NCBI GenBank assembly: GCA_023150875.1
Contig: JAKLKC010000033.1
Location: 1 to 64,000 of the forward strand
DNA: 64,000 nucleotides
Source of the DNA: Myxococcota bacterium
GTDB lineage: Bacteria > Myxococcota_A > UBA796 > UBA9615 > JAKLKC01
Direction of reading: 5' to 3'
Below the pieces are notes generated by a model that was given only the letters and a program-made list of their open reading frames with translations, was not told where the DNA came from and searched no databases. Each line of letters opens with the position of its first letter. Positions within the stretch are counted from its first letter, which is position 1. This document shows positions 28,972 to 44,166 of this stretch, piece by piece. Both the position numbers and the translations under genes were made by a program.

Positions 28972-29054
28972 GAGGTGATCCCTGGGTGGGCCCGCCGGCG
29001 ACTCCCGGCCCGCTTTCGGGTAGGCTCCCGCCGGGTCCCAGGAGTAGCTCTACC

Positions 29055-29690
29055 ATGAACGGGCGGCCGGCGGTGGATGGGGCCGGGGGGCGGGTGCTGC
29101 TGGCGACCCGGAACCCGGGGAAGGTGCGGGAGTTGCGGGCCCTGCTGGCCGGGGAGGGGATCGAGGTGCTCTCGGCGGGCGACGTGCCCGGCGCGCCCGA
29201 CGTCCCGGAGACGGGGGCGACCTTCCGCGAGAACGCCTTGCTGAAGGCCCACGCCCTGGCGGCCCCGGGCCTGCTCGCCGTGGCCGACGACTCCGGCCTG
29301 GAGGTCGACGCCCTGGGCGGGGCCCCGGGGGTCCGCTCGGCGCGCTACGCCGGGGAACCCAAGGACGACGCCCGGAACTCCCGTCGGCTGCTGGACGAAC
29401 TGGAGGGTGTGCCCGACGAGGGCCGCGCCGCCCGCTTCCGGTGCGCCCTGGCCCTGGTGGCCGACGGCCAGGAGGCGGTCTTCGAGGGGACCTGCGAGGG
29501 GCGGATCGCCAGGGAGCCCCGGGGCGTGGGGGGCTTCGGCTACGATCCGGTGTTCCTGCCGGACGGTGGAACGCGGACGATGGCGGAGCTCTCGGACGCC
29601 GAGAAGAACGCCATCAGCCACCGCGGGCGGGCGTTCGCGGCGGCGAGGGAGACGATCGTGACCTGGGCGCGCCGCGCCTCCGAGGCGTGA
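29055..29690 (+). CDS. rdgB: dITP/XTP pyrophosphatase
   Basis: 211 residues of the HAM1/RdgB family: ATRNPGKVREL near the N-terminus, DDSGLEVDALGGAPGVRSAR, RCALALV, FGYDPVF and ISHRGRA. These are the metal- and nucleotide-binding motifs. It hydrolyses dITP and XTP to the monophosphates and pyrophosphate, keeping damaged purines out of DNA and RNA. The ATG at 29055 was chosen as closest to the conserved start. Six bases separate it from the next gene. Confidence 0.92.
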   Translation: MNGRPAVDGAGGRVLLATRNPGKVRELRALLAGEGIEVLSAGDVPGAPDVPETGATFRENALLKAHALAAPGLLAVADDSGLEVDALGGAPGVRSARYAGEPKDDARNSRRLLDELEGVPDEGRAARFRCALALVADGQEAVFEGTCEGRIAREPRGVGGFGYDPVFLPDGGTRTMAELSDAEKNAISHRGRAFAAARETIVTWARRASEA

Positions 29691-29696
29691 TCGACG

Positions 29697-30302
29697 ATGC
29701 CGAACCCGTGGATGACCCCGACCCACCGCGCGTTCATCGCGGTGAGCCTGCTGTGGCTCGTCTACGAGCTGGCATTCGGGCTCCTCCCCTCGCGCCGCGG
29801 GGCCGGGGAGGGCCGGGCCGACGCGGGCTCGTGGTGGTGGCTGACCCTGTCGGTGACATCGGGGGTGCTCCTGTCGGGGGCGGTGGCCCGGCACACCCAC
29901 GTGCTGGCGCCCTCGGCGGCGGTGGCCACCGACCTGATGGGCATCGCCCTGGTGGCCGCCGGCTTCGCCCTGCGGGCGCGGGCGATGTCCGAGCTGGGGC
30001 GCTCCTTCACCACCCGGGTGGCGGTGGACAGGGACCAGCGGGTGGTGGACACCGGCCCCTACTCCCGGGTGCGCCACCCCGCCTACCTGGGGGACCTCGT
30101 CGCCTTCGCGGGGATCGGCCTCGGGCAGGCCAGCGCGGTCTCGGCGGCCCTGCTGTGGCTCCTGTGCGTCCCCCCCCTCCTCTACCGGATCCGCGTCGAG
30201 GAGGCAGCCCTGGGGGCGGTGCTGGGGGAGTCCTGGCGCGCCTACGCCGCCCGCACCCCCGCCCTCCTCCCCTTCCCCCGCCCCGGCCGCCCCCTCCCTT
30301 GA
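29697..30302 (+). CDS. Isoprenylcysteine-carboxyl-methyltransferase-like membrane protein
   Basis: 201 residues with four to five membrane helices and the motif DTGPYSRVRHPAYLG followed by IRVEEAAL, the SAM- and substrate-binding signature of the ICMT/PEMT (phospholipid methyltransferase-like) family. Bacterial members methylate lipids or small molecules; the substrate cannot be told. Follows rdgB closely. Confidence 0.8.
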   Translation: MPNPWMTPTHRAFIAVSLLWLVYELAFGLLPSRRGAGEGRADAGSWWWLTLSVTSGVLLSGAVARHTHVLAPSAAVATDLMGIALVAAGFALRARAMSELGRSFTTRVAVDRDQRVVDTGPYSRVRHPAYLGDLVAFAGIGLGQASAVSAALLWLLCVPPLLYRIRVEEAALGAVLGESWRAYAARTPALLPFPRPGRPLP

Positions 30303-30346
30303 CAATCCCCCCGCCCGCGCCGACAATCCCGCCGCCTTCGGCTCGT

Positions 30347-30423
30347 GGGGAGATAGCTCAGTTGGCTAGAGCGTCGGATTGTGGCTCCGAAGGTCTCGGG
30401 TTCGAGTCCCGGTCTCCCTACCA
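30347..30423 (+). tRNA. tRNA-His (anticodon GTG)
   Basis: A full cloverleaf fits: acceptor GGGGAGA with TCTCCCT, D arm GCTC/GAGC, anticodon stem TCGGA/TCCGA with loop TTGTGGC (GTG at 34-36), variable AGGTC, T arm TCGGG/CCCGG with TTCGAGT, discriminator A and encoded CCA at 30421-30423. The first pair is G1:U72, the discriminator is A73, and the base before G1 is T, so there is no encoded G-1:C73 as in most bacterial tRNA-His. See findings. Confidence 0.93.
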
Positions 30424-30659
30424 CTTCCCGCCTCGGCCCCTCTTCCGGGACTCGACCCGGCGGCAGGATGCCGCAAGGGGACTTCCGCGAAGCGGAAGCC
30501 CGAAGGGCGCCGTCCGTGACGGACGGCGTCAGCGGGCGCGTGGCGCAGCCAGTGGCTGAAAAGCGGCCGTGACGGCCGCGTCAGCCACGCGCCCCGGCCC
30601 TGGAGGCCCCGTCCCGGACGGGCGGGGCCGGAAGGGTCGAGTCCCGGTCTCCCTACCAC
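30402..30659. repeat. Direct repeat of the tRNA-His 3' end around a hairpin-rich segment (att-like)
   Basis: The 23 bases at 30402-30424 (T arm to CCA plus one) are repeated exactly at 30637-30659. A copy of a tRNA 3' end downstream of the tRNA is the classic mark of a site-specific integration. The 212 bases between (30425-30636) code for nothing clear and form four strong hairpins: arms 30482-30488/30492-30498; 30508-30516/30520-30528; 30552-30559 plus 30563-30569 with 30573-30579 plus 30581-30588; 30605-30616/30619-30629. Two of them share the loop context CCGTGACGG. No integrase gene is present. Confidence 0.75.
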
Positions 30660-30662
30660 CGC

Positions 30663-31217
30663 CTACTTGCTTGATTCGACAGCGGTCTTCTCCGGCGTGA
30701 CGACCTTAGGGCCAGCAGGGATTCGATCAGCGGTCCGGGTTGAGGTAAGGTCCGGAAATCGCGACCAGTCCTCACGGTGGACCTGAAGGGACTTGCCGTT
30801 GCCCCGCACGTCGTCCGGCGTGATGGTAACCCTGAGCAGGATCTGCTCGCCTACCCGATAGCCCACGCCATAGCCGGTGTGCAGATCGAACAGGGTTCGC
30901 CTCCCCATCAGGATGTAGTCACACCACCGATCCTTGTGGCGACATGCGAGGACGTACATCAGGTCGGGCGTACGCTGCGTCGCGACCTGGGGCCATCCGA
31001 AGCTGAACTTTGCGGCGTAGCCACCCAGGCGTGCGCGTGCCTGCGCATTGGCAGCCTTGACCTGGATGCGGTTCAGGACGCCCGTATCGTCGTTCACAAC
31101 GAAAACGTCCTCGCCGATGTCCACCTCCGGGATCGCGACGTTGTAGCCTCGGATGAGGAACTCCGCCATGACCGCGAACTGGCCGCTCTTGCCGAGATAC
31201 AGGCCACCTCGCGCCAT
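30663..31217 (-). CDS. PD-(D/E)xK nuclease-fold-like hypothetical protein
   Basis: 184 residues. The first 60 follow the pattern of small nuclease-fold proteins: GKSGQFAVMAEFLIRGYNVA (helix with Glu), EVDIGEDVFVVND (acidic residue) and NRIQVKAAN, with Gln-x-Lys on the core strand. In related groups these residues bind metal for DNA cleavage or structure. The rest is unremarkable. Last gene of a three-gene operon (31833 to 30663) with overlapping ends; the island begins right beside the repeated tRNA-His end. Nuclease activity is inference. Confidence 0.55.
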   Translation of the reverse strand: MARGGLYLGKSGQFAVMAEFLIRGYNVAIPEVDIGEDVFVVNDDTGVLNRIQVKAANAQARARLGGYAAKFSFGWPQVATQRTPDLMYVLACRHKDRWCDYILMGRRTLFDLHTGYGVGYRVGEQILLRVTITPDDVRGNGKSLQVHREDWSRFPDLTSTRTADRIPAGPKVVTPEKTAVESSK

Positions 31218-31534
31218 CAGAAGATCCGGGCGACTTCACGCTGGTTCACGGGGTCGAACAGCACTGCGCCACCGAGATCCCGGATCTGCTCGCGGGTCAG
31301 GCCAGTCAACATCGTAGCGACCTGGGGCCACATCGGTCCATGGATCCGCTCGAAGTCCAGGAGCGTGTCATACCCGATGAATACGTTCGGGGCGGGGTGC
31401 ACTCCCGGGAAGCGGTGGTCGATGATGCGCCGTGAGCGCGGATGAAGCGCATAGGAGCAACCGTCGGCCTGCTGACCGAATAGCACCAGGATCGGCTCCA
31501 GGCTGGCGCTCGGGTCGCTACCTGCGCGCATCAT
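31217..31534 (-). CDS. Hypothetical protein of the tRNA-His island
   Basis: 105 residues with no family I recognise. It is a soluble, mixed alpha/beta sequence (ILVLFGQQADGCSYALHP; NVFIGYDTLLDFERIHG). It overlaps the upstream UPF0175-like gene by four bases and meets the next gene at one shared base, so all three genes are probably translated together. It may be a partner or regulator of the nuclease-like protein. Confidence 0.6.
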   Translation of the reverse strand: MMRAGSDPSASLEPILVLFGQQADGCSYALHPRSRRIIDHRFPGVHPAPNVFIGYDTLLDFERIHGPMWPQVATMLTGLTREQIRDLGGAVLFDPVNQREVARIF

Positions 31535-31833
31535 CGAGCGGTCTCCACCCCGACGGCAATCCCATGGCCGTCGACCTCACGGTCCACCTCACCGACTTCA
31601 AAGCCCAGGGGCGTGACGTGGTGGCGACCCATCAGGGCGAGGAAGGCGGCGACGGGCATCCCGGCCAGCTCCGCCGCCTTGCCGTACCCGAGCCGGCGCT
31701 CCCGGACCTGCTCGACCAGCCAGAGCGCACGCATCTCGGCGGCGATGTCGTCGGGGGACCAGGGGTGGTGCCGCAGTGCCTCCCTGGGCAGCCGGACGGG
31801 GACGGTCAGGGACTCGGATGTGGCGTCGGACAT
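31531..31833 (-). CDS. UPF0175-like small protein (antitoxin-type)
   Basis: 100 residues. LTVPVRLPREAL near the start and LGYGKAAELAGMPVAAFLALM followed by TPLGF match the UPF0175 pattern: a ribbon-type start and a short helix-turn-helix-like core, often seen as the antitoxin partner of a PIN or other toxin. First gene of the three-gene operon. A TATACT at about 31842-31847 on the minus strand lies only nine to ten bases before the ATG, which would give an almost leaderless transcript. Confidence 0.6.
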   Translation of the reverse strand: MSDATSESLTVPVRLPREALRHHPWSPDDIAAEMRALWLVEQVRERRLGYGKAAELAGMPVAAFLALMGRHHVTPLGFEVGEVDREVDGHGIAVGVETAR

Positions 31834-31941
31834 GGGCTCAGTATAGTCCCGGCCGGGGAGACGGGCACGACCATCGAGCGGGCTCCGGCATCGGGGGCGG
31901 CAGCCGGAGCGATGGGGAATCGGCGCTTTAGAACTATACTT

Positions 31942-31961
31942 CTTATAACCATGGTCCTAAG
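31942..31961. promoter_or_regulatory. Palindrome in an AT-rich promoter region (candidate operator)
   Basis: CTTA-nn-ACCATGGT-nn-TAAG at 31942-31961 is a symmetrical 20-mer ending eight bases before the ATG at 31970. TATACT (31935-31940) and TATAAC (31945-31950) nearby are possible -10 boxes. This is one of the most AT-rich spots in the window. The palindrome could bind a dimer and control the ATPase gene. Confidence 0.45.
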
Positions 31962-31969
31962 ATCCGACC

Positions 31970-33445
31970 ATGCTCCCGCCGCCCCCTGGGTACGTCTTCA
32001 ATCGGGCCGCCGAGTGGCAGGGGCTCGCCCGCTTCGCCGCGGACGCCTCCGGCCACCCCGCGCTGGGGGTGGTCTACGGCCGGCGGCGCCAGGGAAAGTC
32101 GTTCCTGCTGCGGGCCCTGTGCCGCGAGATGGGTGGCTTCTGCTTCGAGGCGCCCGAGGCGACGGAGGCCGAGGCCCTGCGCCTCCTCGGGCAGCGCCTC
32201 GCCGAGCACCTGAAGGTGCCGGGGCGCCTAGCCTTCGACGGGTGGCCCGCCGCCGTGGCGGCGTTGATGGACCTGGGCGCGGGCGACCGGCCGGTCCCGG
32301 TGGTGCTCGACGAGTTCCCCCGGCTGGCGAGGGAGTGCCGGTCGTTGCCGTCGTTGATCCAGGCGGCCTTACCCCCGCGGACGGAGGACGGGAGCGCTTG
32401 CCGAACCCGGCTGATCCTGTGCGGCTCGGCCCTGTCGTTCATGACCCGCCTGCTGTCCGGCGAGTCGCCGCTCCGGGGACGCGCCAGTCTGGAGTTGATG
32501 CTCCACCCCTTCGACTACCGCCAGGCGGCGGCCTTCTGGGGGCTTCACGACCAACCCACCTTGGCGTTCCGGGTCTACGCGGTGGTCGGCGGGACGCCAG
32601 CCTACCGCCGGGAGTTCGTCTCGGAGGACGTTCCCCGGGGCGGGGACTTCGACGACTGGGTGCTGCGCACCGCGTTGAACCCCATGACGCCTCTGTTCCG
32701 GGAGGGCCGATACCTCCTCGCCGAGGAGCGGGACCTGAGGGACCTGGGCCTGTACCACTCGGTGCTCACGGCCATCTCCGAGGGGAGCACCACTCGGGGC
32801 TCCATCGCCGCGGCCCTCGGGCGCGCCTCCACGGACGTCGGACACCCCCTCGCCGTCCTGGAAGACACGGGCTTCGTCGAGCGACGCCAGGACACCTTCC
32901 GCCGCGGGGGATCCACCTGGCACGTCGCCGAGCCCATCGTGAGGTTCCACCACGCCATCACCCGCCCCTCCTGCTCGGCCTGGCAGGACCGGGCGACCGC
33001 CAGCGCGCTGTGGAAGCGGGCCCAGGAGACGTTCCGCTCCCGCCTGCTCGGCCCGGCGTTCGAGGACGTCTGCCGGACGTGGGTGCGCCGGTACGCGTCC
33101 GTGGAGACGATGGGGGACGTGGTGGTGGAGGTCGGATCGGGGGTCGTCCAGGACGCCCGGGCCAGGGCGAGGCACGAGGTGGACCTCGTCGCCTACGGGC
33201 TCCCCGACCCCGGCGGGCGTCGGCGGGTGCTGCTGATCGGCGAGGCGAAGTGGGGGAAGCGGATGGGGATGGAGGACGTGAGGCGGCTGGAGAGGGTCCG
33301 GGAGCTGCTGCGGGCACGGGACGACGTGGACGTGTCGGGATGCCGGATCGGGTGTTTCAGTGGGGTGGGGTTCGAGTCCGTGGCCGCGCAGGAGGCGGCC
33401 GGGGCGCTGCTCGTGGACGGAGATCGGTTGTACCAAGGATCCTGA
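31970..33445 (+). CDS. DUF234-type ATPase (archaeal-ATPase-like with nuclease-fold tail)
   Basis: 491 residues. Walker A VYGRRRQGKS (residues 35-44), Walker B VVLDEFP (about 100), and CGSALSFM as sensor region, the arrangement of the archaeal-type STAND/AAA ATPases. A winged-helix-like segment follows (SIAAALGRASTDVGHPLAVL), then a DUF234-like tail with EVDLVAYG and LIGEAKW, the acidic and E-x-K residues of a PD-(D/E)xK fold. Such proteins are widespread in accessory regions. A role in defence or DNA handling is suspected but not shown. Flanked by the tRNA-associated island and by surface-protein genes. Confidence 0.8.
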   Translation: MLPPPPGYVFNRAAEWQGLARFAADASGHPALGVVYGRRRQGKSFLLRALCREMGGFCFEAPEATEAEALRLLGQRLAEHLKVPGRLAFDGWPAAVAALMDLGAGDRPVPVVLDEFPRLARECRSLPSLIQAALPPRTEDGSACRTRLILCGSALSFMTRLLSGESPLRGRASLELMLHPFDYRQAAAFWGLHDQPTLAFRVYAVVGGTPAYRREFVSEDVPRGGDFDDWVLRTALNPMTPLFREGRYLLAEERDLRDLGLYHSVLTAISEGSTTRGSIAAALGRASTDVGHPLAVLEDTGFVERRQDTFRRGGSTWHVAEPIVRFHHAITRPSCSAWQDRATASALWKRAQETFRSRLLGPAFEDVCRTWVRRYASVETMGDVVVEVGSGVVQDARARARHEVDLVAYGLPDPGGRRRVLLIGEAKWGKRMGMEDVRRLERVRELLRARDDVDVSGCRIGCFSGVGFESVAAQEAAGALLVDGDRLYQGS

Positions 33446-37122: not shown

Positions 37123-38655
37123 TCAGCTCCCCGCCACCCGCCGCCGCCTGAGCCCCGCCAGACCCGCCGCCACCCCCAGAAGCGCCAGGAGCCCCGGGAC
37201 CCTTCCCGGATCCGCCGCCGCCGCGTCGCAACCGGAGCAGCCCGAGTCGTCGGGCCACCCCGGCCAGAGGATCTGGTCGGCGGGGAAGGCCCGCAGGGCC
37301 TCGGCGCAGGTGACGGCGCCGCCGGTGTTCACCGCGGCGAAGCCGTCGGCGCACTCGCAGGTGGGGGAGCCGTTCACCGCCACGCAGCTCCCGCCGTCGC
37401 CGCAGGGGTCCCCGGCGCAGGGGTCGAAGATCCCCCCGTCGATCCCTCCCTCACGGGACGCCATGAGGTCGAAGCCCGCGTCCTGGCAGGCCACCGTGTC
37501 CTGGGGCCCCAGGGAGCCGATCCGGGGGGCGACGATGGCGCGGGCGACGAAGCCGCTCGGGCACATGCACCCCTCGCCGATCTCGGTGACGGCGCACAGG
37601 CCCGCCTCGCCGCAGTAGGTGGTGCCGCACTCGATGGCGGGGGTGGCGTCCAGGTCGGCGCTCACCGGCTCGGCGTCGGAGAGGTCGTGGACGTTGGAGA
37701 CGTCGCCCCCCTCCACCGGGCCGAAGGCGGGGTCCTCGCCCATCTCCCAGTTGGACATCCGGGTGTAGAGGCGGGTGACGTAGGGGCTCCGGGCGAGGGC
37801 CGCCTGGCCCCACTCCCGCGCCTCCTCTTCGCCCTCGACCCCGAGGAAGGTGTAGCCGAGGACCTCGGCCAGGGGCTCGGTGGGAGCTCCGGTGCGGGGG
37901 TCCGCCCTAAGGTGCGCGTCGTCCACCAGGAGGTTCACGAAGTTGGTCGATCCGTAGCGCTGGTCGGCCAGGACGAAGACCACGAAGGACATCTCGGGCT
38001 CGGCGGAGACCGACGTGAGGGTCAGGGGGATGGAGGGGGAGTCCGCGGGGTAGGTCATGCGGATGGGGGCGATGTCCCCCACGTCCGTGCCCGAAGCGAG
38101 CTTCATGCCCAGGAACTTCATGCCCGAGGCGACGTAGCCCTCGACGAAGGGCTCCATCTCGGGGGTGATCACGTAGTCGTTCTCGTTCAGCCAGTCCACC
38201 AGGGCCGAGGGATCGTCCGACGAGATCACCTGGGAGGCGTAGGGCCCCACCTGGGGAAGGTCCTCGACGTGGACGCCGCCGTACTGGGCGCCGTCGGCCA
38301 CGTCGTCGCCCCCGCGGCCGGAGGCCTCCGCCACGGGAGCGTTGGCGGGGAACACCACCGGCGCGCTGGCGGCGTCCAGCACCTGGAGCGCCGCCACCGG
38401 CACCCCCTCCAGGGTCGGCGTATCCGGCACCGGTACCACCCACGAGAAGTCCGCCGCCGCGCCGGTGTAGCGGATCTCCACCGTGGTGGACACCGTGCCG
38501 TCGCCGTTGACCTCGAAGAGGATCCGCTCGGCGTTCTGGTCCACCACCACGATCTGGCAGAAGAAGCCCCCGCAGGCGTGGGCGGGGGACGGGGCCGTGG
38601 CCAGGGCGAGGGCGGCGACGGCGGGCAGGGGGATCAGGCGAGGGAGGGACGGCAT
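37123..38655 (-). CDS. DUF2330 protein (first of three)
   Basis: 510 residues. Signal peptide (VAALALATAPSPAHA) followed directly by CGGFFC, then DQNAERILFEV, FSWVVPVPDTPTL and IRMTYPA, all DUF2330 words. The second half carries Cys-rich segments (TYCGEAGLCAV, CMCPSGFVARAI, CADGFAAVNTGG) like EGF or hedgehog-associated repeats, and a C-terminal tail CSGCD, hydrophobic helix, RRRR of MYXO-CTERM type. GGAGG lies five bases before the ATG. Function of the family is unknown; probably cell-surface. Confidence 0.85.
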   Translation of the reverse strand: MPSLPRLIPLPAVAALALATAPSPAHACGGFFCQIVVVDQNAERILFEVNGDGTVSTTVEIRYTGAAADFSWVVPVPDTPTLEGVPVAALQVLDAASAPVVFPANAPVAEASGRGGDDVADGAQYGGVHVEDLPQVGPYASQVISSDDPSALVDWLNENDYVITPEMEPFVEGYVASGMKFLGMKLASGTDVGDIAPIRMTYPADSPSIPLTLTSVSAEPEMSFVVFVLADQRYGSTNFVNLLVDDAHLRADPRTGAPTEPLAEVLGYTFLGVEGEEEAREWGQAALARSPYVTRLYTRMSNWEMGEDPAFGPVEGGDVSNVHDLSDAEPVSADLDATPAIECGTTYCGEAGLCAVTEIGEGCMCPSGFVARAIVAPRIGSLGPQDTVACQDAGFDLMASREGGIDGGIFDPCAGDPCGDGGSCVAVNGSPTCECADGFAAVNTGGAVTCAEALRAFPADQILWPGWPDDSGCSGCDAAAADPGRVPGLLALLGVAAGLAGLRRRRVAGS

Positions 38656-38770
38656 GGGGGCCTCCTGGGGAGGGGATCGTCCTGCAGCGTAGCCGATCGG
38701 AGGGTGGGTGGGGGATGGCGAGGGAGGGTCGGGACCCGCCCCCGGGGAGCCGGGGGCGGGTGTAGCCGGT

Positions 38771-40384
38771 TCAGCGGCGGCGGCGCAGGACCGCGAGGCC
38801 GGCGGCGAGGCCGGCGAGGGCCAGGCCGTGTCCGGCGGGGGAGTCCGTCCCCGACGCCGCGCAACCGCCGCAGGCAGCCTTGGCGGTGCCGGGGTTGTCG
38901 AGCCACAGGAGCTGCTCGGGGCCGTAGACCTCGCCCGCCTCGACGCAGGTCACCGCGCCGCTGCCGGTGTTGACGGCGGCGTAGCCGTCGGCGCACTCGC
39001 AGGTGGCGACCCCTCCCACCTCGACGCAGGATCCGCCCTCGCCGCAAGGATCTCCGGCACAGACGTCGAACACGCCCCCCTCGATGCCGCCCTCCAGCGA
39101 GGCCAGCAGGTCGAAGGTGACGTCCTGGCAGGCGACCGTGTCCTGGGGGCCGGCGGAGCCCACCCGGGGGGCCCGGATCCCCCGGGCGACGTAGCCGTCG
39201 TCGCACAGGCAGCCGTCCCCCAACTCGGTGGTGGCGCACCGGCCGCCGGGGCCACAGTAGGTGTCGCCGCAATCCACCTCGGGCGCCGCCTCCAGGTCGT
39301 ACCACACGGGGTCGTGACCCGACAGGTCGTGGACGTTGCTGACGTCGCCCCCCTCGGAGGGTCCGAAGGTGGGGTCCTGGGTCATCTCCCAGTTGGACAG
39401 CCGCGTGTAGAGGCGGGTGACGTAGGGGTTGGAGTCCAGCACGGCGGTGACCCAGCTCTGGGCCTCCTCCCAGTCCTCCACGTCGAGCCAGGTGCCCGAC
39501 ACCAACCCCGAGGTGTCGGCGCTGGTGCCCGCGTACTCGGTGAAGAAGGCGCGCCCCCCCGCCTCGTCCGCCTGCCACGAGACCAGGGGGTAGTAGTTGG
39601 TGGCGCCGGTGCGGGGATCCGCCTGGAGGTCGGCGTCGTCGAAGAGGAGGTTCACGTAGTTCGTGGACTCGTACCGCTGGGCGCCGGTGACGAAGACCAT
39701 GAACGACATCTCGGGCTCGGCGGACACCGAGGTCATCACCAGCGGCACCATGGGGGCGTCGCCGGGGTAGGTCATGGTGAGGGGGGCGATGTCGCCGACG
39801 TCGGCGCCGGAGGCGAGCTGGATCCCCAGGAACTTCATGCCCGAGGCGACGTAACCCTCGACGAAGGGCTCCATCTCGGGGGTGATCACGTAGCCGTTGT
39901 CGTTCAGCCAGTCGATGAGGGCCTCGGGGTCGTCGGACGAGATCACCTGGGGCGCGTAGCCGCCCACCTGGGGCAGGTCCTCGACGTAGACGCCGCCGCC
40001 ACCGTCCTCGGCCGCGAGGGCGTTGTCCATCTCCATGCCCGGAGGGAACTCCTGGGGCGGCGGGATGATGCGGGGGGCGGTGCCGGCGTCCAGCAGCTTC
40101 AGCGCCGAGGAGGGGGCCACCGCGAGGTCGGTGGGGGTGTCGGGGACCGGGACGATCCACGAGAACTCGTCGGCGCCGCCGGTGTAGGTGATCTCCACCG
40201 TGGTCGTCACCGTGCCGTCGGGGTTCACCTCGAAGAGGATCCTCTCGGCGTTCTGGTCGATGGCGACCACCTGGCAGAAGAAGCCCCCGCAGGCGAGGGC
40301 CGGCGCGGGCACGGAGGCGAGCAGGGCGCCGGAGGCGAGTCCGGCGAGGGTGGCGAGTCCGGCGAAGCGGGGCAGCGGCGTCAT
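38771..40384 (-). CDS. DUF2330 protein (second of three)
   Basis: 537 residues from ATG 40384. Same architecture: signal peptide to ALA, CGGFFC, DQNAERILFEV, FSWIVPVPDTPTD, MTYPGDAP, Cys-rich part (TYCGPGGRCATTELGDGC; CADGYAAVNTGS) and tail CGGCAASG, hydrophobic stretch, RRRR. Separated from the first copy by 115 bases and in the same orientation, so it arose by gene duplication. The proteins have diverged throughout, which argues for an old duplication. Confidence 0.85.
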   Translation of the reverse strand: MTPLPRFAGLATLAGLASGALLASVPAPALACGGFFCQVVAIDQNAERILFEVNPDGTVTTTVEITYTGGADEFSWIVPVPDTPTDLAVAPSSALKLLDAGTAPRIIPPPQEFPPGMEMDNALAAEDGGGGVYVEDLPQVGGYAPQVISSDDPEALIDWLNDNGYVITPEMEPFVEGYVASGMKFLGIQLASGADVGDIAPLTMTYPGDAPMVPLVMTSVSAEPEMSFMVFVTGAQRYESTNYVNLLFDDADLQADPRTGATNYYPLVSWQADEAGGRAFFTEYAGTSADTSGLVSGTWLDVEDWEEAQSWVTAVLDSNPYVTRLYTRLSNWEMTQDPTFGPSEGGDVSNVHDLSGHDPVWYDLEAAPEVDCGDTYCGPGGRCATTELGDGCLCDDGYVARGIRAPRVGSAGPQDTVACQDVTFDLLASLEGGIEGGVFDVCAGDPCGEGGSCVEVGGVATCECADGYAAVNTGSGAVTCVEAGEVYGPEQLLWLDNPGTAKAACGGCAASGTDSPAGHGLALAGLAAGLAVLRRRR

Positions 40385-40746
40385 GGGGGTGTCTCCTCGG
40401 TCGGCGGGGGGAGAGCAAGGGGGGCGCCGGCGGGACCGGGCATAATTGCGCCCGGTGTGAATGGGAGGCTTTCCCTCCTCCTCGCCCCCGGTCTCCCCCT
40501 CCCCGCGGACGACGGGCCTGGCCGCCCGGACTCGTCCAGGGTCGACGACGATGGCGATGACGGCCCCTGGAAGGCGAGCGACGACTCCGGGAGCGCCGCG
40601 CGCACTCGGGTGCGGCAAACGGACGGGGGCGCCCGGGGGCGTTCGCTTGCGCGCCCGCCACCCGGGGAGCTAGGGTGCTGCTGCCTCCGCGTCCCGCCGG
40701 CCGGGGCGTGGGCCCGTTGAGGACGCTATCCCCCGTGGAGCCGACG

Positions 40747-42429
40747 ATGCCGCGAGCCCCCTGGACCCTCCTCGTCGCCCTCGTCACCGCCCCGCTCCTC
40801 GTGGCCGGCTGCGGGCCCCGGCCGACCGGTGGCGACGACGATGACGACACCGCCCCCGACGACGACACCTGGCTCGGCGACGACGACACCACGCCCGACG
40901 ACGACACCGCCCCCGACGACGACACCACGCCCGACGACGACACCGCGCCCGACGACGACACCGCGCCCGACGACGACACCGCCCCCGACGACGACACCGC
41001 CCCCGACGACGACACCGCCCCCGACGACGACACCGCCCCCGACGACGTTGACGGCGACGGCTTTCCGGCCGGCGACGACTGCGACGACGCCGACGACGCC
41101 GTGCATCCCGGCGCCGAAGAGCACTGCGACGGGAGGGACGAGGACTGCGACGGGGAGGTCGACGAGGAGGCCGTCGACCTCGGCATCTGGTACACCGACG
41201 CCGACCGCGATGGGCACGGAGACCCTTCGGCCTCGACCACGAGCTGCCTCCAGCCCCCGGACACCTCGGAGCTCGGAGACGACTGCGACGACGCCGATCC
41301 CGGCACCCACCCCGGCGCCCACGAGCTCTGCGATGGGGACGACGAGGACTGCGACGGGCTCGCCGACGAGGGCCTCGACGTGGACGTGGACGGCGACGGC
41401 CACTTCCCGGCGGGAGGTTGCGTCGGCGGCGGCGACGACTGCGACGACGGTGACGCCACCGCCTTCCCGGGCGCGGCGGAGGTCTGCGACGGGGACGACG
41501 AGGACTGCGACGGGCTCGCCGACGAGGGCCTCGACTCCCCGTATCACCCCGACGCCGACGGGGACGGCTATGGCGACGACACCGTCACGGCGTGGTTCTG
41601 CGCCGCGCCCGGGGCGGGCTACTCCACGTTCGGGGGCGACTGCGACGACACCTACTACAATACCGAGGGCTTGTGCCGCTGGACGAGCGTGGGCGCCGGC
41701 CGGTTCCACGTGTGCGCCATCCGCGAGGGCGGAGCGGTGGAGTGCTTCGGCCTCGATTACGGCGGCTCGACGAGCCCCCCCGGGGGTTCGTTCCGGCAGG
41801 TCGCGGTCGGCACCTACCACTCCTGTGGGCTCCGGGACGACGGGACGATCGAGTGCTGGGGACAGGACACCTACGGCCAGTCCTCGCCCCCTTCGGGCAC
41901 GTACTCGTCACTCGACGCGGGCCGCAACACCAACTGCGCCGTGCGGGAGCCCGACGCCGCCCTCGTGTGCTGGGGAGAGGACGTCAACGACATGATCACG
42001 GACGTCCCGGGTGGCCTCTTCGTCCAGGTTGGCATCGGCTCGACCCACGCTTGTGCCCTGCGCAACAACGGCACGGTGGAGTGTTGGGGTTCCGACTACT
42101 ACGGCCAGTCGACGCCCCCCTCGGGCACGTTCGAGATGGTCGACGGCGGCTACTACCACTCCTGCGGCGTGAGGACCGGCGGCATGATCGAGTGCTGGGG
42201 CGGTGCCGACCCCGCGGTCACCACTCCCCCCGCGGGGACCTTCCAGTGGGTGTCCTCCCTGGACGGCAACTGCGCCCTGAGCACGGCGGGCGCGGTGGAC
42301 TGCTGGGGCGGCCCCAGCGATCCGACCGGCACCTTCTCCTCCGTCTCCGAGGGGGGCTACACCCAGTGCGGCGTGCACCTCGACGGGACGCTGGAGTGCT
42401 GGGGCAGCCTGGACGGCCTCTGGGACTGA
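40747..42429 (+). CDS. Lipoprotein with MopE motifs and RCC1-like propeller
   Basis: 560 residues from ATG 40747. Lipobox LLVAGC; a very long acidic linker of DDDTAP/DDDTTP units; three to four MopE-type motifs (DCDDADDAVHPGAEEHCDG and others); then about seven repeats around CALRNNGTVECWG and PPSGTF, the pattern of RCC1/BLIP-type beta-propellers. It is inserted, in the opposite direction, between the second and third DUF2330 genes. It should be exposed outside the cell. The RCC1-like part may bind protein partners or inhibit enzymes. Confidence 0.8.
   Translation: MPRAPWTLLVALVTAPLLVAGCGPRPTGGDDDDDTAPDDDTWLGDDDTTPDDDTAPDDDTTPDDDTAPDDDTAPDDDTAPDDDTAPDDDTAPDDDTAPDDVDGDGFPAGDDCDDADDAVHPGAEEHCDGRDEDCDGEVDEEAVDLGIWYTDADRDGHGDPSASTTSCLQPPDTSELGDDCDDADPGTHPGAHELCDGDDEDCDGLADEGLDVDVDGDGHFPAGGCVGGGDDCDDGDATAFPGAAEVCDGDDEDCDGLADEGLDSPYHPDADGDGYGDDTVTAWFCAAPGAGYSTFGGDCDDTYYNTEGLCRWTSVGAGRFHVCAIREGGAVECFGLDYGGSTSPPGGSFRQVAVGTYHSCGLRDDGTIECWGQDTYGQSSPPSGTYSSLDAGRNTNCAVREPDAALVCWGEDVNDMITDVPGGLFVQVGIGSTHACALRNNGTVECWGSDYYGQSTPPSGTFEMVDGGYYHSCGVRTGGMIECWGGADPAVTTPPAGTFQWVSSLDGNCALSTAGAVDCWGGPSDPTGTFSSVSEGGYTQCGVHLDGTLECWGSLDGLWD
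40840..41046 (+). repeat. 18-base coding repeat (DDDTxP linker)
   Basis: About ten tandem units of 18 bases, of the type GACGACGACACCGCCCCC, coding for the Asp-Asp-Asp-Thr-Ala/Thr-Pro linker of the lipoprotein. Units are nearly identical, so copy number can change by slippage without breaking the frame. Shorter versions occur in the linkers at 4900-5020 and 36238-36320. Confidence 0.85.
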
Positions 42430-42537
42430 CCCCCCAGCCCGCCTGCGAGGGCGGCCGACGGGGGAGTGGGATTGGAGTGGGAGCGGGGGCCTTCCATGGC
42501 GGCCGCCATTGGGGGCGGGTCGGTCGTTGCGGGCGCC

Positions 42538-44166
42538 TCAGGCGCGACGGCGGGTGACGGCGAGGCCGAGGAGGGCCGCGAGGGCCAGGGCGCCGGGGCC
42601 GGAGGCGGGGCCGGAGGCGTCGCAGCGGGTCCCGCAGGCGACGGGCTCGCCGGTGTCGTCGCCCAGGCGGTCGCCGGAGTCGTCCTCACCCCCCTTGCCG
42701 CTCCACTCCGGCCACAGGATCTGGCCGGGGCCGTACGTCTCCCGGGCCTCGACGCAGGTGGGCAGGCCGCCCCAGTTCACCGCCGCCTGGCCGTCCGGGC
42801 AGGCGCAGTGGGGGAAACCGCCCACCGCCAGGCACGAGCCGTCGCCGCAGCTCACCCCGGCGCAGGGATCGGGCATGTCCTCGGCCGAGACGGAGGCCAG
42901 GAGGTCGAAGTCCTCGTCCTGGCAGGCCACCGTGTCCATGCTGCCCAGGCCCCCCACCACGGGCGCGACGATGGCCCGGGCGACGAAGCCGTCGTCGCAC
43001 ACGCACCCCTCGAACCCCTCGTCGGTGGTGGCACAACGCCCGCCCGGGCCGCAGTACGTCATGGCGCAGGGCACCTCGGCGGTGACGGCGGCGTCGAAGC
43101 TGACCGGGGGACGGTCCGACAGGTCATGGATGTTGGACACGTCCCCCCCCTCCACCGGAGCGAACAGGGGGTCCTGGGTCATCTCCCAGTTGGACATGCG
43201 CGCGTAGAGGCGCGTGAAGTAGGGGTGCCGCCCGATGGCGTCCACCGCCCACGCCTGGGACTCCTCCACATCGTCCCAGCCGTAGTACCAGGTGGACCAC
43301 ACCAGGTTCTGGGTGCTCTCGGCGTCGTCGGCGTACTCGGTGAAGAAGGCCCTCCCCCCCACCTCGTCCGACTGCCACGAGATCAGGCCGAAGTAGTTGT
43401 TCCACCCGTTGCGCGGGTCCGCCTGGAGCAGCTCCTCGTCGATCTCCAGCGTCGGGTAGTTGCTGGACCCGTACCGCTGGTCCCCGAGGATGTACACGAT
43501 GAAGCCCATCTCCGGCTCCGCCGCCACCCCCGTCAGCTTCAGGGGGATCATGGGCTCGTCGCCGGGCCAGGTCACGGAGATCGGCTGAATGTCCGACACC
43601 CCCGCGTCGGGGGCGAGCTTCATCGCCAGGAACTTCATCCCCGCCGCGACGTAGCCGTCCACGTAGGGCTCCATCTCCGCCGTGATCAGGTAGCCGTTGT
43701 CGTTGAGCCAGGCCACCAGCGCGTCCGGGTCCTCCGACGACACCACGGTCGGATCGTAGGGGCCCACCTGGGGCAGGTCCTCGACGTCGACCCCCCCTCC
43801 ATCATCGGCGTCGTCGTCGCCCCCGGCGGTGGGGGCAAGCTCTTCGCCATCGATGGGGGGCGGGATGATCCGGGGCGCGGTGGCGAGGTCCACGAGGCGC
43901 AGGGCCGAGCCGGGGACGACGTCCAGGGTGGGGGTGTCGCTGACCGGGATCACCCACGAGAAGCCGTCGGGGGTGCCGGAATAGCCGATCTCGATGACGG
44001 CGGTGACGGTGCCGTCGCCGTGGACCTCGAAGAGGATCCTCTCGGCGTTCTGGTCCACCGCCACCTGCTGGCAGAAGAAGCCCCCGCAGGCGGCGGCGGT
44101 GGCCGGGAAGGCGAGGGCGGCGGCGAGGGCCGCGGCGGCGAGACCCGCGGCGGGTGCGGAGCGCAT
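42538..44166 (-). CDS. DUF2330 protein (third of three)
   Basis: 542 residues. Signal peptide ending AAA, then CGGFFC, DQNAERILFEV, FSWVIPVSDTPTLD and VTWPGDEP, followed by the Cys-rich region (TYCGPGGRCATTDEGFEGC; CPDGQAAVNWGG) and an Arg-rich tail (ACGTRCD ... VTRRRA). The tail is less typical of MYXO-CTERM than in the other two. It closes the DUF2330 group; the promoter is likely within 44167-44275. Confidence 0.85.
   Translation of the reverse strand: MRSAPAAGLAAAALAAALAFPATAAACGGFFCQQVAVDQNAERILFEVHGDGTVTAVIEIGYSGTPDGFSWVIPVSDTPTLDVVPGSALRLVDLATAPRIIPPPIDGEELAPTAGGDDDADDGGGVDVEDLPQVGPYDPTVVSSEDPDALVAWLNDNGYLITAEMEPYVDGYVAAGMKFLAMKLAPDAGVSDIQPISVTWPGDEPMIPLKLTGVAAEPEMGFIVYILGDQRYGSSNYPTLEIDEELLQADPRNGWNNYFGLISWQSDEVGGRAFFTEYADDAESTQNLVWSTWYYGWDDVEESQAWAVDAIGRHPYFTRLYARMSNWEMTQDPLFAPVEGGDVSNIHDLSDRPPVSFDAAVTAEVPCAMTYCGPGGRCATTDEGFEGCVCDDGFVARAIVAPVVGGLGSMDTVACQDEDFDLLASVSAEDMPDPCAGVSCGDGSCLAVGGFPHCACPDGQAAVNWGGLPTCVEARETYGPGQILWPEWSGKGGEDDSGDRLGDDTGEPVACGTRCDASGPASGPGALALAALLGLAVTRRRA

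Follow-up and report, generated by a model that had tools for sequence, protein, structure and literature searches.

Beside a tRNA-His gene in the genome of a Myxococcota bacterium (assembly GCA_023150875.1, contig JAKLKC010000033.1), we analyzed a cluster of four genes within a stretch of 64,000 nucleotides, referred to here as the window. Three of them overlap on one strand: nuc184, coding for a predicted nuclease of 184 residues, p105, coding for a protein of 105 residues, and a gene of the UPF0175 family; the fourth, coding for an ATPase, is divergent from these (Table 1). A first-pass annotation made from the DNA sequence alone had read the locus as a mobile defence island. Its four genes and the neighboring tRNA-His were all confirmed where it had placed them, with overlaps between the open reading frames of 1 nucleotide (nuc184/p105) and 4 nucleotides (p105/UPF0175). 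The antitoxin-type assignment of the UPF0175-like protein also held (Pfam PF03683, E-value 4.5e-10, above the cut-off). In the protein labelled a DUF234-type ATPase, ATPase_2 (PF01637) was found just at the cut-off (E-value 5.5e-8) and DUF234 matched the C-terminus below it (E-value 0.022); the nuclease-like motif (D...ExK) at this C-terminus is a by-eye reading. Comparison with other genomes established that p105 and nuc184 form a conserved, linked two-gene module.

A profile search with nuc184 in a collection of 84,980 species genomes returned 77 loci of the nuclease family, and a p105-family sequence directly adjoins the nuclease gene in 69 of them. The remaining eight are L112-L117, counted within the 77 and handled as a separate, divergent subfamily, L090, where the contig end cuts the locus, and L100, where there is a stop inside the nuclease gene and p105 is absent. 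Loci L019-L022 were left out as duplicates of L048, L044, L042, and L045. By record title, the nuclease loci belong to Bacteroidota, Myxococcota, Gemmataceae, Gammaproteobacteria, a cyanobacterium (Symploca), Desulfobacterales, Latescibacterota, and Thermoanaerobaculia. Arcicella aurantiaca DSM 22214 and a Nannocystis strain are examples of carriers in culture. Two even samples of genomes gave a similar picture. Among 377 Myxococcota genomes, p105 is present in 9, nuc184 in 10, and both in 8, and the two genes adjoin each other in all seven shared genomes besides the window's own. Among 395 Bacteroidia genomes, p105 is present in 10, the nuclease in 11 (9 strong and 2 weak), and both in 9; the nine genomes with a strong nuclease match are the shared ones, and the genes are adjacent by coordinates. 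Three weak nuclease relatives (G010, G609, and G695, E-values 1e-7 to 2e-5) are included in the nuclease counts of 10 and 11. With the search-centre genome removed and genome kinship ignored, the hypergeometric probability of this co-occurrence is ~1e-12 in Myxococcota and ~3e-14 in Bacteroidia. The co-occurrence proposed earlier for three genes is therefore seen for p105 and nuc184 and not for UPF0175, which was found in 0 of 108 related loci (20 of them with flanks of ~1.5 kilobases (kb), and some overlapping or duplicating one another). The ATPase, which had been considered part of the same unit, was likewise found in 0 of the 108, both results coming from searches with a single sequence and with a profile built from two sequences, which distant members could escape.

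The arrangement of the pair is also conserved. The p105 gene lies upstream of the nuclease gene in all 63 same-strand pairs, with gaps of -20 to +10 nucleotides in 61 and an exact 4-nucleotide overlap in 23 of the 63. The other six of the 69 pairs, together with L024, are convergent (7 loci). Six of the convergent loci, all of the Polyangia type, form one group in the nuclease tree (support 0.988), and the convergent locus L043, from Gemmataceae, groups apart from them with the window (support 0.90); the linkage has therefore outlived at least two rearrangements (inversions). Distances within the two families correlate (r = 0.87, reached in 0 of 2000 permutations), and the pooled ratio of non-synonymous to synonymous differences (pN/pS) is 0.18 for p105 and 0.17 for nuc184 (54 pairs each). 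Both genes are under purifying selection, with conservation far above chance. Type II toxin-antitoxin systems are recognized as two small adjacent genes that usually overlap and move together, and p105-nuc184 has these features.

Structure prediction supports the nuclease fold that had been proposed for the 184-residue protein. The AlphaFold2 model of nuc184 (predicted local distance difference test (pLDDT) score of 91.7) has as its best fold match the group I intron homing endonuclease I-Ssp6803I (Foldseek E-value 8.4e-5; Z score 13.0, root-mean-square deviation 3.2, and 129 aligned residues with VIA-align). It also resembles DREN, the effector nuclease of SPARDA (Z score 10.3, root-mean-square deviation 3.1, and 116 aligned residues, again with VIA-align). 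An E-D-QxK site is conserved across 51 family members, with E19 present in 49, D37 and Q52 in 50 each, and K54 in 51. The Pfam family PDDEXK_5 (PF11645), built on I-Ssp6803I, matches the window protein below its gathering cut-off (E-value 0.0025, 18.3 vs. 26.1 bits needed). With a threshold of E ≤ 0.1, all 51 members match PDDEXK_5 (best E-value 8.5e-7), whereas no more than 11/51 match DUF4365 (best 0.0047). In PADLOC-DB 2.0, the nuc184 and p105 proteins of the window have no match at E ≤ 1, and members of their families match weakly (best E-values 2.9e-4 and 7.6e-4, respectively). On the strength of the model, a PD-(D/E)xK core fold of the I-Ssp6803I/DREN (QxK) type is well supported, and the fold together with the conserved active site supports the prediction that nuc184 is a metal-dependent nuclease of the I-Ssp6803I/SPARDA-DREN kind.

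The DREN structure paper places the active site of this enzyme at D41/Q60/K62, describes collateral cleavage that leads to cell death or dormancy, and itself remarks on the likeness to I-Ssp6803I (PMC12205087). Accordingly, nuc184 (D37, Q52, and K54) shares its fold and D...QxK pattern with DREN, a DUF4365 nuclease of the SPARDA short-Argonaute system, and by analogy it is probably a collateral nuclease as well. Unlike SPARDA DREN, nuc184 stands alone, with no pAgo or APAZ domain among the four window proteins scanned, and its partner is p105.

Given that I-Ssp6803I is the nearest solved fold and that the PADLOC homing endonuclease model weakly matches 9 of the 51 nuclease members (best E-value 0.0076), nuc184 might instead be an I-Ssp6803I relative acting as a selfish, free-standing endonuclease of the homing type, to which p105 would be accessory. 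We consider this very unlikely. Unlike I-Ssp6803I, nuc184 is nearly always accompanied by p105, a strict linkage that a homing function leaves unexplained, and the flanks differ between loci with no shared insertion site among the flanking genes, the extent to which introns and inteins were searched.

The partner protein is more difficult to place. The AlphaFold2 model of p105 (pLDDT 90.3) is a small alpha/beta protein; the window protein has no Pfam match, and a search of solved structures gave no clear match (best Foldseek E-value 0.30, best Z score 4.0), which does not establish a new fold. RNase H-like resemblances were not accepted, and a match to the Pfam family CTK3 in 6 of 53 members (best E-value 3.8e-4) was judged to be due to chance. 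Across the 53 members, G25 alone is invariant, and P32, L76, and G78 are nearly so. Because invariant residues are few, with no enzyme-like invariant polar ones, these sequences make it unlikely that p105 is an enzyme. A weak p105-like stretch (36% identity, E-value 3e-4) was also seen in a 636-kb uncultured phage (L161, LR756504.1, positions 541012-541233).

The genes next to the pair in the window had suggested a larger unit, in which UPF0175, p105, nuc184, and the ATPase would together be one mobile defence island beside tRNA-His. The overlapping genes point in this direction, as do matches of the ATPase and UPF0175 proteins to the PADLOC candidate models PDC-S27 (E-value 9.2e-18) and PDC-S70 (E-value 8.2e-4), respectively. 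With UPF0175 and the ATPase found in none of the 108 related loci, we regard such an island as extremely unlikely. UPF0175 is present in 37 of 282 Myxococcota genomes, and among the eight Myxococcota genomes that carry both p105 and the nuclease, only the window's own (G000) belongs to these 37. In addition, no integrase or defence domain was found in 10 proteins between positions 29697 and 49674, a selection of the open reading frames there, and the direct repeat at the tRNA belongs to a tRNA-trailing element described below. The operator predicted earlier was not recovered either, as a search of 30300-32100 gave no promoter-like or terminator-like sites and the region between the divergent UPF0175 and ATPase genes contains only short inverted repeats. 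COG2886 is described as a helix-turn-helix antitoxin family linked to PIN genes (PMC2701414), and the gene upstream of p105 is a UPF0175 member like those of the UPF0175/COG2886-PIN toxin-antitoxin pairs. Unlike in those pairs, Pfam found no PIN match in the proteins neighboring UPF0175, and UPF0175 does not accompany p105-nuc184 elsewhere; it could be a local acquisition that adds a further transcriptional regulator upstream of the pair in this genome.

The surroundings of the pair in other genomes do not resemble defence islands either. The flanking genes vary among loci and, by eye, encode mostly housekeeping proteins. In a test of 140 near and 140 far proteins, sampled from 186 and 169 at loci below 55% guanine-plus-cytosine (GC) content, with open reading frames picked mechanically, 76 PADLOC model names were matched near the pair vs. 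10 far from it at E ≤ 1e-10. We did not accept this difference as an enrichment, since many of the 76 names are redundant, each of the best 25 of the 76 being matched by one protein, and the near matches trace by eye to few proteins, e.g., a type IIG-like enzyme (L050), a kinase-leucine-rich repeat protein (L089), and a UvrD/PcrA that is probably a housekeeping protein (L096).

The pair was likely acquired horizontally, because its GC content is lower than that of its flanks (63% over p105-nuc184 vs. 72-75% on either side) and its distribution across phyla is patchy, with presence in ~2.5% of the sampled Myxococcota and Bacteroidia genomes. Of the mobility first ascribed to the locus, this is the part that stands; no integrase was found in the 10 nearby proteins scanned, and no tRNA-end repeats flank the cargo. 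Our tentative preference, held at slightly under even confidence, is that p105-nuc184 is a horizontally acquired, self-contained nuclease module in which p105 restrains nuc184, following a toxin-antitoxin or abortive-infection logic. The tight linkage, the patchy spread, and the foreign composition fit such control, the mechanism of which we infer as follows. The nuclease would act on nucleic acid, the probable target being DNA of the host or of an invader, and may cut it with little sequence specificity, by analogy with DREN. Free nuc184 would be harmful to the cell; p105 would bind it and hold it inactive until it is released by a trigger, for instance phage infection or loss of p105. The pattern of gene loss leans weakly toward this kind of control: six loci have a broken nuclease gene and an intact p105 (L023, L025, L073, L105, L109, and L110), a count from which L107 was left out for its assembly Ns, and in L098 both genes are broken. 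A bolder proposal, that a stand-alone DREN-like collateral nuclease and a new-fold sensor or inhibitor constitute an unrecognized, phylum-spanning immune or toxin-antitoxin system, is possible, although we find it doubtful. Nothing on the p105-nuc184 pair appeared in the search listings of the literature on PDDEXK_5, DUF4365, UPF0175, and toxin-antitoxin systems.

Several observations weigh against restraint of nuc184 by p105. In L059, a short tandem duplication interrupts p105 next to an intact nuclease gene, and in L039 the nuclease is intact and p105 is not detectable; the resulting 6-to-2 asymmetry in losses is weak, as the nuclease gene is longer and draft assemblies add errors. The matching p105 and nuclease trees may come from common descent alone. 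The p105 model displays no recognized DNA-binding or antitoxin fold, and p105-like domains are also found at the C-terminal end of longer proteins with no nuclease next to them (L027, L026, and L154), in which Pfam found nothing. Enrichment in defence islands is not seen around the pair. Finally, nuc184-type queries have no plasmid or phage match, which is unusual for an addiction module: neither p105 nor nuc184 nor a Bacteroidota nuclease matched plasmids, the two nucleases had no match in phages, and query A3 had none in viral contigs.

The main rival to restraint by p105 is a two-subunit nuclease, in which p105 would be a positive subunit, providing target, stability, or specificity to a restriction-like or DNA-repair enzyme; we rate it as rather unlikely. 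It would be consistent with the strict linkage and the matched family distances, with the chromosomal housekeeping surroundings and lack of plasmid matches, and with the observation that loss of the nuclease with retention of p105 is not strongly asymmetric. The related nucleases of L112-L117 (Desulfovibrio, Rhodocyclaceae, Sulfitobacter, and others) lack the p105 partner and carry instead an N-terminal extension, which could be a fused targeting part; of the two extensions tested, that of L115 is HARE-HTH-like, below the cut-off (E-value 0.021), a match not reported for L112. However, p105 has no recognized nucleic-acid-binding fold, L039 and L059 retain an intact nuclease without an intact p105, and the patchy presence of the pair speaks against a core repair role.

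The end of the tRNA gene, first taken as the boundary of an island, proved to belong to a different element. The 3' end of tRNA-His is repeated once, with no further copies in the window (≤3 mismatches) or in the genome (≤2 mismatches), and both copies are on the same side of the operon, so that the cargo is not flanked. The duplicated end encloses a 211-nucleotide spacer of a tRNA-trailing repeat family; this stretch, which lies between tRNA-His and the operon, is a tRNA-trailing structured element and not an island. Its core recurs elsewhere in the window's genome and has a stable branched fold (z-scores of -3.7 to -6.6), and among five copies, 16 of 48 pairs show compensatory changes on both sides. 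A covariance model detected 12 copies in the window's genome, plus single copies in G251 and G256, two genomes of the same order. Each of the six best copies trails a tRNA gene, namely tRNA-Arg(ccg), Leu(taa) (two copies in tandem), Glu(ctc), His(gtg), or Ala(cgc), and ends in the 3' end of its own tRNA, with 0 or 1 mismatch per 22 nucleotides; the copy in G256 follows tRNA-Leu(caa) and likewise ends in the 3' end of that tRNA. Inverted copies of the tRNA end (4 to 6 mismatches), which can pair with the 3' copy, stand ahead of the core at Arg, Leu, and Glu; at His the inverted copy is weaker, and at Ala it is not clear. For the six weaker copies of the window's genome and the copy in G251, no tRNA was found within the stretch retrieved. 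Apart from the tRNA, Rfam gave no family at gathering score at the element. In E. coli, the rtT repeats after tyrT are repeat units that trail a tRNA gene and duplicate its 3' end. The window element is similarly a unit after a tRNA gene with a copy of the tRNA 3' end but, unlike rtT, belongs to one structured family found after at least five different tRNAs in one genome, each copy matching its own tRNA. Three genomes of the same order have a Pro-Arg-His-Arg-Lys-Leu tRNA cluster after rdgB; in the window (28986-30423), rdgB is followed by an ICMT-family gene and a lone tRNA-His, and the surroundings of tRNA-His have therefore been rearranged here. Elsewhere in the window, at 37123-44166, three DUF2330 proteins are clustered, with an RCC1-repeat/MopE-motif protein among them.

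Table 1 Features of the p105-nuc184 locus and related sequences in other contigs and loci
Feature	Position	Strand	Description
nuc184	30663..31217	-	Predicted PD-(D/E)xK-type nuclease, E-D-QxK (I-Ssp6803I/DREN-like) kind; core module gene
p105	31217..31534	-	Core module gene; partner protein, family unnamed
UPF0175 (COG2886-type) gene	31531..31833	-	Helix-turn-helix antitoxin-like; local neighbor, outside the conserved module
ATPase_2/DUF234-like ATPase	31970..33445	+	491 residues, divergent; neighbor, outside the conserved module
tRNA-His (GTG)	30347..30423	+	Found with ARAGORN
tRNA-trailing structured repeat	30424..30659	+	Ends in the copy of the tRNA-His 3' end (30634-30659)
Copies of the trailing element	window 30424-30659; G000 C171:3441-3579, C102:10082-10380, C105:42263-42401, C148:14954-15090; L174		
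p105-like C-terminal domains	L027 6612-7379 (window's genome); L026 4280-5017; L154 1080-1685		Host proteins of 201-255 residues

The unit at this locus is thus corrected from a four-gene island to two genes, and p105-nuc184 belongs among the small nuclease-plus-partner modules. It combines a confidently modelled nuclease with a partner family that has no accepted Pfam match, and it is conserved in at least Myxococcota, Bacteroidota, Planctomycetes, Gammaproteobacteria, and Cyanobacteria. DREN nucleases are known as Argonaute-linked effectors, and a stand-alone nuclease of the DREN type with its own small partner would offer a simple test bed for how a collateral nuclease is restrained. If the immune or toxin-antitoxin reading is true, the p105-like domains in L026, L027, and L154 would mark further systems with the same control module.

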